Assembly (NCBI GenBank): GCA_029565685.1
Contig: JAKQNR010000001.1
Coordinates: 69,710 to 133,709 of the forward strand
Reading direction: 5' to 3'
DNA: 64,000 bases
DNA from: a bacterium
GTDB taxonomy: Bacteria > Zhuqueibacterota > Zhuqueibacteria > Residuimicrobiales > Residuimicrobiaceae
Position numbers and translations under genes: made by a program. How positions within the stretch are numbered: the stretch's first letter is position 1; every line of letters begins with the position of its first letter. Below, in pieces: positions 2,996-8,819 of the stretch. The notes under the pieces were generated by a model. It searched no databases and was not told where the DNA came from. It was given only the letters and a program-made list of their open reading frames with translations.

Positions 2996-4054
2996 ATGTC
3001 GTTTCAGAAGGGTTGGGCGGCGCTGCATCTGCAATTCACATCGCGCGTGCCGCGTACCGAATATTCTGCCGATCAACACTGGCCTCTGGTTCAAGCGGTC
3101 ACCGGCGTCAAGGTGTCTGCAGACAGCCCGCCGGACCTGCAGGCGCAGGCCTCCGCCGCCTTCCGCAAGGCCTGGCACTACGATCTGGTGTGGAGCATCG
3201 CCGTCAGCCGGGAAGAATTCGGCGAACAGTATACTGAAATGGGCCATGCTGTGTATGCGCACGGCGGCCAGGATTACCTGCCCGCAGGCGCTGCAAGGTG
3301 GACCGATCCGGAACAAATTCTGAACCTGAACCCGGTGCAGCTATTCGGCATTCCGAATCACCACACCCTGGTCAGCCGCTTCAACAGCCATTACGCGGAA
3401 AAATGCCGCCAAACTCCTGAGGCGGTCAATATGACCGGCATTTATATAACCCTCATCTCCGGCCTGATCTATCTCTTCGGCTGGGAGGAGCTGCTGGTCG
3501 CAGCAGGAACCAGCGGCGAACGGTTCGGCGCATTGGCAGAGCGGTACCGCCGATGGATCCAGCCCTATTTTAATGCCCTGGCCGATGCCCAAGCGCCGGT
3601 GGTGATGATCCATGATGATTTTGTCTGGAGCAGCGGCCCGTTCCTGCATCCGGACTGGTACCGCCGGTTTCTCTTTCCCTCTTATCGTGCTCTGTTCGAG
3701 CCTCTGCGCCAAGCGGGAAAAATCATTCTGTTCACCTCTGACGGCGACTATACGCTGTTTATCGACGACCTGGTCGCCTGCGGGGTCAATGGGCTGGTGA
3801 TGGAACCCTTCACCGACATGGCCAAAGTCGCGACAAGTTATGGAGACCGCATCAGCTTTATCGGCAATGCCGACACCCGCGTGCTGCTGTCCGGCGGTAG
3901 AGATGAAATACGCAACGAGGTCAAACGGTGCATGGAGATCGGCAAAGCCCACCCAGGGTTTTTCATGGCCGTGGGCAATCACATTCCCGCCAACACACCG
4001 GTGGACAATGCCCTTTTCTACCAGGAGATGTACCAGGAGTTGAGCAGGCGCTGA
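2996..4054 (+). CDS. Uroporphyrinogen-decarboxylase-like (URO-D superfamily) protein
   Basis: 352-aa TIM-barrel protein of the URO-D/MtaA superfamily. The C-terminal half is the clearest: IHDDFVWSSGPFLHPDWYRR, then SDGDYTLFIDDLVACGVNGL, GNADTRVLLSGG, and the ending FMAVGNHIPANTPVDNALFY, typical of the 'decarboxylase-like' members in gene clusters unrelated to heme. No other heme gene is nearby, so heme synthesis is unlikely. These relatives are often methyltransferase-like or of unknown role. A second, different member lies at 5444-6517. The start is the first ATG in frame; its Shine-Dalgarno sequence is weak. The 3' end abuts the remnant of an SPFH gene. Confidence 0.85.
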   Translation: MSFQKGWAALHLQFTSRVPRTEYSADQHWPLVQAVTGVKVSADSPPDLQAQASAAFRKAWHYDLVWSIAVSREEFGEQYTEMGHAVYAHGGQDYLPAGAARWTDPEQILNLNPVQLFGIPNHHTLVSRFNSHYAEKCRQTPEAVNMTGIYITLISGLIYLFGWEELLVAAGTSGERFGALAERYRRWIQPYFNALADAQAPVVMIHDDFVWSSGPFLHPDWYRRFLFPSYRALFEPLRQAGKIILFTSDGDYTLFIDDLVACGVNGLVMEPFTDMAKVATSYGDRISFIGNADTRVLLSGGRDEIRNEVKRCMEIGKAHPGFFMAVGNHIPANTPVDNALFYQEMYQELSRR

Positions 4055-4495: not shown

Positions 4496-5284
4496 TCAAT
4501 GTTGGGGACACTGGGACGGCCGGTGCGCCGGCAGGCTGATGGTAAAGTGCGTCCCCTCTCCCAGGCGGCTCTGCACCGTAAGAGTGCCCTGATGGCGGGA
4601 GACGATCTCCTTGCACACATACAGACCAAGCCCATGACCGCAGGCATGGCCGCTGTGAAAAGGCTGAAATAACGTAGACAACGTAGCGCGATCCATGCCC
4701 GGACCGTTGTCGCACAGGCTGCACACCACCATCTGGCTCTTCTCCTGATAGCCGGTTTTGATGCGCAGGGAGACATCCGGACAAGCCTGCAGAGCGTTGT
4801 ATAGAAGATTAAACAGCACCTGGCGGATCTGCGATTCCACGCCGCAGATCAAAGGCAGGTTTTCAGCCGCGCAGAATGAGACTGCGGTTTTATGTTTGCG
4901 TAAAAAGGACTTGAGGACAAATAAAAAATCAGCGATGACCAGGTTAAGGGAGAGAGGGACAGGATGAAAGTCGGGTTTGACGCCTGAGAAAAGCGCCTGG
5001 GTCAACTCAAAAGCGTCGCGCAGCGCCTGAGCGGCGCAGTGCAGGCGCTCCGTCGCCGAGCCATACTCCTGCTGCGCCATGCACTGCAGCGCCACCTCCA
5101 GATTGCCATAACCGATGGTGAGTTGGTTATTCATCTCATGGCCGATGCTGGCGGCCAGAGTGCCGGCCATGAGCAGGCTTTGCTGCTGCAAAAGCCGCCC
5201 GCTTTGCTCCTCGATATCTGCCGCAGCAGCCGCCGTCTCAATCTCCCTGGTCAGGGCTGCCGCATGTGCTTGATCCCAGCTCAT
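4496..5284 (-). CDS. Small cytoplasmic sensor histidine kinase
   Basis: 262-aa protein made almost only of a kinase core. After a short helical N-terminus comes an H-box with the likely phosphorylated histidine (SIGHEMNNQLTIGYGN), then an N-box (QVLFNLLYNALQAC), a G1 box (LCDNGPGMD) and a G2 box (GHGLGLYVCKEIVSRHQG) of a HATPase_c domain. There is no transmembrane segment and no recognisable sensor domain, so input must come from a partner or from the N-terminal helix. No response regulator is adjacent. The start is well supported by GGAG seven bases upstream of ATG. The ORF over 4270-4776 in another frame is a shadow. Confidence 0.9.
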   Translation of the reverse strand: MSWDQAHAAALTREIETAAAAADIEEQSGRLLQQQSLLMAGTLAASIGHEMNNQLTIGYGNLEVALQCMAQQEYGSATERLHCAAQALRDAFELTQALFSGVKPDFHPVPLSLNLVIADFLFVLKSFLRKHKTAVSFCAAENLPLICGVESQIRQVLFNLLYNALQACPDVSLRIKTGYQEKSQMVVCSLCDNGPGMDRATLSTLFQPFHSGHACGHGLGLYVCKEIVSRHQGTLTVQSRLGEGTHFTISLPAHRPSQCPQH

Positions 5285-5443: not shown

Positions 5444-6517
5444 TTAGAGCAGCGAGCGTTTTTTTTCCAGGTAATAGCTGTAATTGGCCAGAGTGACTTC
5501 AGGCGGCACTCGGTGATCCACGCAGGGGATAAAACCGCCTTGTTGCAGCAGCGGGGTCAGACGATCCCATTCACGGTCGATGGCCCCACGACCGGCGATG
5601 AGAGCTCGCTTATCCACGCCGCCGATCAACAGCAGCTGATCGCCATAGTCCTGGCGCAAGCGAATCGCATCGGTGTGGGCAGCCTCCAAGGGAAACATGA
5701 CGCGAATGCCCGATTCCAGCCAACCCGGAACCAGCTCATAGATGCAACCGTCACAATCCAGAACATTATGCACAATGCCTTTGGCCTTCAGGCTGGAGGT
5801 GATCTCCTTGTAGCGCGGCACCATCAGCTCATGAAACAGTCGCGGAGACATCAAGGGGCCGTGATTGTAGCACATATCCTCCCACCACCAGGCCACGTCC
5901 ACCAGTCCACGGGGGATCCGCTCGATCAACTGAAGGGTCAGCAGAACGAGGTGATCCATCATCTCCCCCACCCAGTCTTTTTCAGACATAAGCGCATAAG
6001 AAAAATTTTCCACGCCCATCCAATTGCGCAACCAGCCGTAGAGCGATCCAGCGTTAAAAATAACCGGCAGGCCGGTGCGCTTGGCCTGTTGGCTGAACAA
6101 AGCCAGATCTACGCAACGTTCCGGATGTGACGGATCCAGTCTCTCCCGCTTGAACGTTTCCCAATCCGCGCGGCTTTCGATGACATATTTGAGGTAGCGG
6201 GGAATGGTCGAACCGGTGGAAGGCACTTCGCAGAGGTTGCCATCCGTGTCTTGCAAAATAAGATGATCGCCCCTGTCTTCCAACACTCTTTTTTCAAACG
6301 CCGGATGCAATCCGTTTGGCAATGAGAGCAGGGGAAAAATGGAAACCCCTTCGAGACCGAGATAACACTCCACCTCGCTGTTGGTGATGACCGAGCGCGG
6401 CAATCCCTGTTTATGCCACTCGGTGATGGTTTCATCCCAATAGCCAAACTCAAAATCAGGGATCGAATCCGGCTTTTCATGATTGAGAACGGCGAGAAAG
6501 CGTTCACGTGTTGTCAT
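5444..6517 (-). CDS. Uroporphyrinogen-decarboxylase-like (URO-D superfamily) protein
   Basis: 357 aa. The N-terminus MTTRERFLAVLNHEKPDSIP is the classic opening of URO-D superfamily proteins found outside heme clusters, and the C-terminus ends with the equally typical VDHRVPPEVTLANYSYYLEK. A central segment WWWEDMCYNHGPLMSPRLFH forms part of the barrel. It is divergent from the homologue at 2996-4054, so the two are not a recent tandem copy. Role unknown; relatives act in methyl transfer or as uncharacterised decarboxylase-like enzymes. The start has AAGGA seven bases upstream. The upstream M28 peptidase gene ends 31 bp away, so the two are probably co-transcribed. Confidence 0.87.
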   Translation of the reverse strand: MTTRERFLAVLNHEKPDSIPDFEFGYWDETITEWHKQGLPRSVITNSEVECYLGLEGVSIFPLLSLPNGLHPAFEKRVLEDRGDHLILQDTDGNLCEVPSTGSTIPRYLKYVIESRADWETFKRERLDPSHPERCVDLALFSQQAKRTGLPVIFNAGSLYGWLRNWMGVENFSYALMSEKDWVGEMMDHLVLLTLQLIERIPRGLVDVAWWWEDMCYNHGPLMSPRLFHELMVPRYKEITSSLKAKGIVHNVLDCDGCIYELVPGWLESGIRVMFPLEAAHTDAIRLRQDYGDQLLLIGGVDKRALIAGRGAIDREWDRLTPLLQQGGFIPCVDHRVPPEVTLANYSYYLEKKRSLL

Positions 6518-6548: not shown

Positions 6549-8819
6549 TTATCTGCCGATAAATTTCTTGATGTTGTCCGTCATCACCTGCGTCATGGCG
6601 GCGTAGGCCTTGGCGACGCCGTGCTGATTTCGGCGCGCTTCATACAGCTTTTGCACCCACTGATACTTGCCCTCAGGGGCCAGAGACAGCGTTTTCGCAA
6701 AGGCGACGTGCAGCAGGCCGGCCGGCAGGCGATCGTAGAGCTGCCACACCGAGTCGACCGGTTGATCGGGCGTGGTTTCAAGGATCACCAGGCTCTGCTT
6801 TTTATCCAGACGCTGGGCAAGAAAACCCTGCAGATTCAAAGCCTGTGTCGGCGTGAGCCGCAGCAGCAGTTTTACGCGTCCGGCGGCCAGCAGGGCGGAG
6901 ATCTGCGCGCTGTCGGCAAGCGTGGTTTCGACAACGCCGTTTTCCTCTGCCCAGGTTTGCACCAACGTGTGCCCCCAGCTGCTGAGTCCTTTGCCGTCGA
7001 ACACAGGATCCTGCGGCGAGCGAAGGCACAGCCAATTGACGCCGGCGCGGTACAGCAGGCGGGCATGAGCGGCATTCTGGTGCAGCGATTCCGTTCCGTT
7101 GAGAGCGATGGCGGCGCACAGCCTGGCGCCGGACGCCGCCTCATCGAAACTGACGCTGTTTTTGAAACGGAGCAGCTTGGATCCTTCACGAATGCGGCGC
7201 TCCAGGTCATCGTATGCGGCGAACAGGTCTTTTTCCTCCGCCGTAGCGGGCAGTGGGTAAACCACGCAGCGCACAGCCGCAGGGATGGCGCGATCTCGCA
7301 GAGAGTCGGCTTTTGCCAGAGTGGTCGCCGGCTGAAAAGAAAAATCAATCTGATCGCCGAACAAGTGAAAGAAATAGCCGCTGCGATTTCCGCCGAACAA
7401 CAGAGTGCCGGGCGCATCGGCCAAAACGGTCAGCAGCTCCACACAGCGCTCTCCGACGACCTGCAGCGCCTGAACATTGAGCGTCGACGGGTCATCTTCG
7501 AACTGATGATAAAACGGATGGTCTCCTGTAGAGGAGACATAAAAAGCCGGAATGCCCTGTTCGACAAAATAGGCATGATCTGAGCCGAACACGCCGCTGC
7601 CGCGGTAGAGTTTCAGTTTTTTACTCACCGAATCATTGTGGCTTCGCACCCAGGGGTCCAGCAGGTCAAAAAAGTAGTTCCGGCCGCTGATGCTGACTCC
7701 GCCGTCGCCGGCGCCGACCATATCTAGATTGACGTTGGCGACGATCTTTTCCGCCGGGACTGAGGGATGAAGGGTGAAGTAGCGGGAGCCGAGCAAGCCC
7801 TGCTCTTCGCCGCCAAAGCAAGCAAAGATGATCGAGCGCTTGAGTTTTTTCTGCCTGATCACTCGGGCCATCTCCATCACCACCGCTGTTCCGGAGGCGT
7901 TATCGTCTGCGCCGGCGTAAAGATGACCATCCAGGGAAAGACCGTTGTGATCCATGTGGGCGCCGACAACCAGGTATTCGTCGGCAAGAACCGGATCCGT
8001 GCCGCGGACCACGACCAGGACGTTTTCGCCTTCCTGGACGGCCGCCAGATCAAACCGGCTGCTCATCGCCATCCTCCGATGAAAGGAAAAAGAGTGGGGT
8101 TTGTCAGCCAGGTCGCGAAGGAGATGATCAATGTTTTTGTGGCATCCGGTAAAGAGGTCGCGCGCCACTTTTTTAGAGATGTTGAAAATGGGCATGTGCG
8201 GTCGATATCCTTCTGCGGTGATCGTAACGCCGCGCAGAGGCCAATCGCCCCGGTCCAGCATCAACAGGCCGGAAGCCCCTTTTTGTTCAGCGGTGCGCAC
8301 CTTGTAAAACCGCTCGTTGGCAAACGCCCAATCCTGGCCATTCTGCGGCACGCCGCGTTGAATCAATACGATCTTGCCCTTTACGTCCATGCCCGCATAA
8401 TCGTCCCAGCCCATGGAGGGTTCAGAGATGCCGTAGCCGATAAAAACCACCTCTGCGGAAAGCTCGGCGGAGCCCGAGTTTTGATACGGGATGAAATCAA
8501 CATTCTCCCGGTATTCGATGGCGCCATAAGAGCTGTTGAGCAGCTTCAATTTAGCCTTTTTCTTCTGCTCGGTGACCAGCATGGGAAATATCTGCAAATA
8601 GCCGTTCTCATCGCCCATGGGCGTCAATCCCCAGCTCTTCAGCTGGTTGCTGATCCACAGCGCGGCGTTGCGCGCCTCCGTAGTGCCGGTCTTGCGGCCT
8701 TTGTATTTCGGCAGGCACAGCTCCTCGACATAAGAAAATGCGGCTGATCCATCAAAAGCGTCCTGGGCCGCGGTGAACGAGAACAATAGTAAAACAAAGA
8801 TCACGCTCTTTTTCATCAA
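6549..8819 (-). CDS. Secreted M28 zinc aminopeptidase with a degenerate M19-like C-terminal domain
   Basis: 756 aa with an N-terminal signal peptide (MMKKSVIFVLLLFSFTAAQ). A PA-like insert lies at about 120-240 and the M28 core at about 280-465. The co-catalytic zinc ligands are visible: H288 in GAHMDHNG, D305 in AGADDNASG, E338/E339 in FGGEEQGLLGS, D366 in NLDMVG and H438 in FYHQFEDD. It would release N-terminal residues from peptides outside the inner membrane. The last 250 residues resemble membrane dipeptidase (M19), for example DLERRIREGSKLL, then IALNGTESL and ARLLYRAGVNWLCLRS, followed by GLSSWGH, but the metal-binding histidines expected of M19 are absent. It is probably a pseudo-enzyme domain. 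Both ATGs at the start are usable. Confidence 0.9.
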   Translation of the reverse strand: MMKKSVIFVLLLFSFTAAQDAFDGSAAFSYVEELCLPKYKGRKTGTTEARNAALWISNQLKSWGLTPMGDENGYLQIFPMLVTEQKKKAKLKLLNSSYGAIEYRENVDFIPYQNSGSAELSAEVVFIGYGISEPSMGWDDYAGMDVKGKIVLIQRGVPQNGQDWAFANERFYKVRTAEQKGASGLLMLDRGDWPLRGVTITAEGYRPHMPIFNISKKVARDLFTGCHKNIDHLLRDLADKPHSFSFHRRMAMSSRFDLAAVQEGENVLVVVRGTDPVLADEYLVVGAHMDHNGLSLDGHLYAGADDNASGTAVVMEMARVIRQKKLKRSIIFACFGGEEQGLLGSRYFTLHPSVPAEKIVANVNLDMVGAGDGGVSISGRNYFFDLLDPWVRSHNDSVSKKLKLYRGSGVFGSDHAYFVEQGIPAFYVSSTGDHPFYHQFEDDPSTLNVQALQVVGERCVELLTVLADAPGTLLFGGNRSGYFFHLFGDQIDFSFQPATTLAKADSLRDRAIPAAVRCVVYPLPATAEEKDLFAAYDDLERRIREGSKLLRFKNSVSFDEAASGARLCAAIALNGTESLHQNAAHARLLYRAGVNWLCLRSPQDPVFDGKGLSSWGHTLVQTWAEENGVVETTLADSAQISALLAAGRVKLLLRLTPTQALNLQGFLAQRLDKKQSLVILETTPDQPVDSVWQLYDRLPAGLLHVAFAKTLSLAPEGKYQWVQKLYEARRNQHGVAKAYAAMTQVMTDNIKKFIGR

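Follow-up and report, generated by a model that had tools for sequence, protein, structure and literature searches.

Gene and domain layout

The window, by which we mean the whole 64,000-nucleotide stretch of DNA analysed, carries on its reverse strand a gene in which an aminopeptidase of peptidase family M28 is continued by a C-terminal domain related to the dipeptidases of family M19. The frame is open over 6549-8819 (-) and encodes 756 amino acids from a TTG at 8819, or 755 from the ATG at 8816-8814, the codon right after it. The ATG is the likelier start and yields an N terminus resembling a signal peptide; most full-length relatives have hydrophobic N termini of a similar kind, and the fusion protein is probably exported. 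A frameshift or assembly artefact as the origin of the fusion was ruled out because nine genomes agree. The main features are as follows.

6549..8816, minus strand: M28 aminopeptidase plus pseudo-M19 fusion protein (open reading frame, and relatives of matching layout from 8 further genomes)
8763..8816, minus strand: signal-peptide-like N terminus, MKKSVIFVLLLFSFTAAQ (sequence, by inspection)
8157..8405, minus strand: PA-domain insert, residues 139-221 (PF02225, E=1.2e-6)
7437..8024, minus strand: peptidase M28 catalytic domain, residues 266-461 (PF04389, E=2e-42)
6552..7415, minus strand: C-terminal pseudo-M19 (beta/alpha) barrel, residues 469-756 (profiles, hhalign, AlphaFold2 and Foldseek)

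The M28 half is unambiguous by profile, PF04389 scoring 145.6 bits in a Pfam search against a cut-off of 21.3. An earlier note on this DNA, made from the letters alone, had called the M28 zinc ligands complete, and all of them could be located (His288, Asp305, Glu339, Asp366 and His438), together with the catalytic Glu338. The ligand and catalytic columns are invariant in a 14-row alignment of fusions, and the domain reads as a zinc aminopeptidase whose predicted active site is complete. For the whole protein, the best matches in both sequence and structure are the M28 aminopeptidases with a PA insert AM-1 (2ek8), BSAP (6hc6) and PaAP (8ac7), which share with it the catalytic domain and zinc ligands. 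Their chains, however, have 400-510 residues and no C-terminal M19 barrel, and the match stops where the M28 domain ends.

Origin of the C-terminal domain

Taken alone, the C terminus of the window protein scores E=0.02 to 0.14 with the M19 profile PF01244, under the Pfam cut-off, and single-sequence Pfam and NCBIfam searches of this part gave no decisive M19 match. Because the single-sequence score is below that cut-off, deciding the M19 claim takes more than the window sequence alone. Searches at the family level settle it. M28 fusions of the phylum were sorted into classes A to D (see below), the window's domain belonging to class C, and a profile built from nine class C domains, the window's included (profile A2), retrieves catalytic M19 proteins from genomes of the phylum with E down to 2.7e-13. 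Its two best catalytic M19 matches have the HxD, Glu, TLTH, DVSH, RN and SDFDG motifs. With PF01244, whose cut-off is 26 bits, the class C relative L014 reaches 35.9 bits and the class B protein L091 55.5 bits (E=6.7e-15).

Profile-profile alignment with hhalign matched M19 to class C at 95.5% probability (E=1.4e-8), to class B at 99.3% (E=1.8e-20) and to class D at 89% (E=2.3e-6), class D also matching classes B and C, more strongly. Four window proteins used as controls stayed below 2% against classes B, C and D, and below 1% against class C. Real scores against M19 ran from 54 to 153, with shuffled maxima of 22-26; for class C the score was 70, against a maximum of 22 over 25 column shuffles and 17 with the profile reversed.

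Structure prediction agrees. AlphaFold2 returned a model of the domain alone with pLDDT 86.8 and pTM 0.86, in which beta and alpha elements alternate, and a model of the whole protein with pLDDT 85.8 and pTM 0.81. When the domain model was compared to the PDB with Foldseek, ranks 1-20 were all M19 dipeptidases or dipeptidase-like amidohydrolases of the M19 family (E=2.2e-9 to 7e-7), the next fold following at 1.5e-4; TM-scores to M19 structures, taken by query length, were mostly 0.6-0.73, a moderate similarity. One intact M19 (in the fusion L089) and other relatives were among the rows of the AlphaFold2 alignments and could bias the model towards M19, and for this reason the fold result is not wholly independent of the sequence result. 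As modelled, the domain appears to keep an M19-type (beta/alpha) barrel.

The C-terminal domain descends from a peptidase-family M19 dipeptidase. The earlier note had read the last ~250 residues as tracking M19 and the protein as an M28 enzyme fused to an M19-like domain, and had proposed a profile search and a structure prediction as checks. Both readings hold: profile searches, the hhalign match, shuffles, the confidently predicted M19-type barrel (no different fold emerged) and relatives with the same layout in many genomes all agree. Its placement of the domain at residues 500-756 needs adjusting, as the domain begins nearer residue 469. That this is an unrelated TIM barrel resembling M19 by chance is scarcely credible, for although the window sequence by itself falls under the Pfam cut-off, the A2 profile, hhalign, Foldseek, the shuffles and the L014 score are all specific to M19, and the URO-D-like and sugar-isomerase-like proteins among the hhalign controls match nothing.

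Among characterized structures, the M19 dipeptidases human DPEP1 (1itq), Sco3058 (3id7) and GliJ (5lwz) have the barrel fold and a detectable sequence kinship in common with the window domain, which differs from them in having no recognisable M19 metal ligands or catalytic residues and in being fused to M28. Foldseek rank 3 went to human DPEP3 (6vgo), a member of the M19 family said to lack dipeptidase activity; DPEP3 is a standalone animal protein, whereas the window domain is part of a bacterial fusion. The DPEP3 literature that we searched does not discuss the loss of activity.

Loss of the M19 catalytic site

We number M19 site positions as in human DPEP1, with His20 and Asp22 (the HxD motif), Glu125, His198 and His219 as metal ligands and His152, Arg230 and Asp288 lying around the substrate. 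In standalone M19 proteins of the phylum, residues at all these positions are as expected wherever covered, save that His152 is so in 27 of 32. Four segments of the window domain serve as landmarks.

7341..7361, minus strand: FGDQIDF (residues 487-493), first predicted barrel strand of the domain (A2 alignment and predicted secondary structure)
7086..7103, minus strand: LNGTES (573-578), aligned with the Glu-Gly (E125) motif of M19, with Asn in place of Glu (profile alignment)
6909..6935, minus strand: VVETTLADS (629-637), counterpart of M19 DVSH (H198), His replaced by Leu (profile alignment)
6561..6584, minus strand: MTDNIKKF (746-753), equivalent to the C-terminal LGxNxxRV motif of M19 (alignment)

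Class C domains have N, R, L, K or V at Glu125, L, F, I, R or P at His198, and L, Q, A, K or M at His219, with a His one place earlier in one member (L011). Across classes B, C and D the ligand columns are replaced or gapped, the exception being the His of HxD, kept in most of class B. At H152, R230 and D288 the class C alignment has gaps, and the HxD region is aligned unreliably; the HxD, SHS, TLTH and SDFDG motifs were sought in the window domain and are absent. For HxD, H152, R230 and D288, positions that are not confidently aligned in class C, we take loss from the absence of the motifs. The sequence GDQ on the first strand is invariant in 9/9 class C members of the A2 alignment and sits where HxD would, an equivalence that we infer rather than align.

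The claim that the M19 metal ligands are missing is thus borne out, E125, H198 and H219 being aligned and replaced and the HxD motif absent. Two details of the earlier note are to be corrected: the first M19 motif is HxD, not HxDxH, and the "EGS" at about residue 553 is not the Glu-Gly motif of M19, which aligns instead with LNGTES. The window domain is without a recognisable M19 metal site and hence a predicted dead dipeptidase. This bears on annotation: the window domain lies under the Pfam M19 cut-off, and some of its relatives pass it and could be misnamed membrane dipeptidases although the site is gone.

Fusions in the phylum

A search for the same fusion elsewhere, also suggested in the earlier note, found M28 proteins with an M19-like C terminus in at least 19 of the 82 genomes of the phylum; one has an intact M19 domain and the others are degenerate. 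The intact one constitutes class A (L089:757-3378, G016:C2), a single frame of 874 amino acids with a complete M28 followed by a complete M19 (PF01244 E=1.3e-98). L089 is predicted to be bifunctional, since its M19 site is complete, as is its M28 site. It has the domain order, PA insert and M28 clade of the window protein, the difference being that L089 alone has an intact M19 site. The seven class B proteins are still scored as M19 and retain at most the first His; class D, also of seven, has a domain that matches classes B and C and, less strongly, M19. Class C domains occur in M28 fusions of 9 of the 82 genomes, the window's own included, two of the nine being truncated reading frames that still include part of M28. 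Their identity to the window's domain is 23-83%, mostly 23-32%. The genome that encodes L089 also encodes a class C (L011) and a class D (L138) fusion.

A tree of M28 domains places classes A, B, C and D together with two Kryptonia proteins and an unfused one, L143 (support 94/95). Within this clade A lies in a group with B and D (99/94), and class C is supported at 100/99. This is the pattern that one old fusion would give, but more than one fusion or loss may lie behind it, since L143 is unfused, the Kryptonia domain is not tied to M19 and L089 may have taken up a new M19. In a tree of M19 domains, the L089 domain falls among standalone M19 proteins and not beside class B, and a joint clade of A and B is not rejected (p=0.097); the M19 of L089 might be a separate acquisition. 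Degenerate domains, with their long branches, could not be placed in this tree. The two Kryptonia M28 proteins (L017 and L018), near class C in the M28 tree, end in a domain of ~240 residues of no recognised family, for which hhalign gave less than 5% against M19, yet with every score slightly above all 25 shuffles. Beyond the phylum, a single contig scan made mostly with M28 patterns brought in M28 relatives alone, and in none of them, the Kryptonia domain set aside, could an M19-like C terminus be recognised.

Unfused M28 genes lie directly upstream of unfused M19 genes, on the same strand, in four genomes from one other family of the class (L102, L145, L146 and L147, in G025, G027, G028 and G023, respectively), and their M28 proteins come from a different branch. 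M28 and M19 enzymes, these show, have been paired more than once.

Pseudoenzyme domains are common, but their intermediates can seldom be compared with one another. This phylum has unfused M28-M19 pairs in adjacent genes, an intact fusion, fusions with one ligand left and fusions without a recognisable site, a graded series that makes the timing of catalytic loss, and the service of the dead half to its partner, directly testable. Recurring in several stages of decay, the fusion offers a natural series for asking why a peptidase keeps a dead peptidase. Both parts belong to known families. In the literature searched, which left most subscription journals outside its scope, we found no account of how they are combined, least of all of a graded series leading from an intact to a dead domain, and no description of an M28-M19 fusion or of a pseudo-M19.

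Role of the retained barrel

Comparison of five close pairs gave dN/dS of 0.12-0.25 for the C-terminal domain against 0.04-0.08 for the compared M28 part (NG86), ratios that are rough in three of the five, where synonymous distance is ~1.3 or more. Between the window protein and a relative of the same genus, the domain stands at 0.17 (YN00, 0.22) and the compared M28 part at 0.04-0.05. Because its dN/dS is well below 1 yet higher than that of M28, the domain is under purifying selection and is kept, though less constrained; the relaxed ratio also fits weak constraint. Leaving aside which role it might be, we think it quite probable that the domain is M19-derived, inactive and retained for a non-catalytic role.

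A possible history begins with an M28 and an M19 gene fusing into a two-step exopeptidase, in which M28 would free amino-terminal residues and M19 would split dipeptides. The intact fusion L089 suggests this original logic, an exported aminopeptidase with a dipeptidase finishing small peptides. In most lineages, the dipeptidase half would then have lost catalysis, and the barrel would have been kept for non-catalytic service to the M28 half.

As to the nature of this service, a substrate-binding or regulatory role, as the earlier note suggested, is compatible with the selection on the domain and with the invariant GDQ. Taken together, a binding or gating surface and an assembly surface are likely to cover the actual role. 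Between them we lean tentatively, at somewhat under an even chance, to the pseudo-M19 domain serving as a wall beside the M28 site that binds peptides and acts as a gate, a preference that stems from the invariance of GDQ amid otherwise fast-changing domains. A narrower version, to which we give a small chance, makes the dead barrel a dipeptide or peptide sensor, in which a pocket at the GDQ strand would bind a substrate or product of M28 and control access to it. If true, several lineages of one phylum would have turned a fused second enzyme into an internal regulator.

A near rival, though less likely than not, is that the domain serves mainly as a scaffold for oligomerisation or stability, a dimer interface placing two M28 domains with no ligand involved. 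M19 dipeptidases are commonly homodimers, and proteins of subfamily M28B, such as GCPII and transferrin receptor, have a C-terminal non-catalytic module, helical, through which they dimerise. The whole-protein model matches GCPII and transferrin receptor in Foldseek, and quick divergence with the fold kept, as seen in class C, would also suit a scaffold. The parallel is inexact: in M28B the M28 domain may be the dead part, transferrin receptor being the classic dead M28, and the extra domain is helical, whereas in the window protein M28 is intact and the M19 barrel dead. GDQ, invariant on the first strand of nine divergent domains, suggests in addition a retained local site and not packing only, which favors the binding and gating wall.

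It is improbable that the domain is a functionless passenger decaying after the fusion. Weaker purifying selection than on the M28 part, several stages of decay side by side and a close relative in the clade, L143, without such a domain are what decay would produce, but dN/dS well below 1 in all five pairs is not, in nine class C genomes the domain retains its full length and an open frame, and its fold is confidently predicted. Quite improbable, too, is a repurposed domain with a new active site or another cofactor and chemistry unlike that of M19. Barrels are often repurposed, and both GDQ and the His of an LHV motif are invariant in class C; the 13 invariant class C columns, however, include only a single Asp and a single His, not enough for a metal site of the M19 kind, that His is the counterpart of the His in M19 HVGIGSD, which is no metal ligand, and the domain is far more variable than the M28 part.

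Flanking genes and other M19 proteins of the phylum

No common pathway emerges from the genes beside four class C loci, which differ from one locus to the next. The window also encodes a URO-D family protein at 5444-6517 (-) (E=1.5e-9) and, by eye, a second at 2996-4054 (+); the two face each other, flanking a histidine-kinase-like open reading frame at 4496-5284.

Intact M19 domains of the phylum have other partners as well. L096:2321-4762 (G080) has an intact M19 (E=8e-118) followed by a segment weakly resembling M29 aminopeptidases (E=6e-5, below the cut-off), another dipeptidase-exopeptidase fusion, with the order reversed. L090:831-2936 (G021) joins an intact M19 to the start of a DNA methylase domain in one frame, either a fusion or two genes run together in frame. 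In L101:876-2603 (G063) and L100:384-2174 (G064), an intact M19 is preceded by an extended N-terminal region that on visual inspection is carboxypeptidase-regulatory-like and then has a secretion-tail-like motif (NYPNPF) ahead of the M19 domain.
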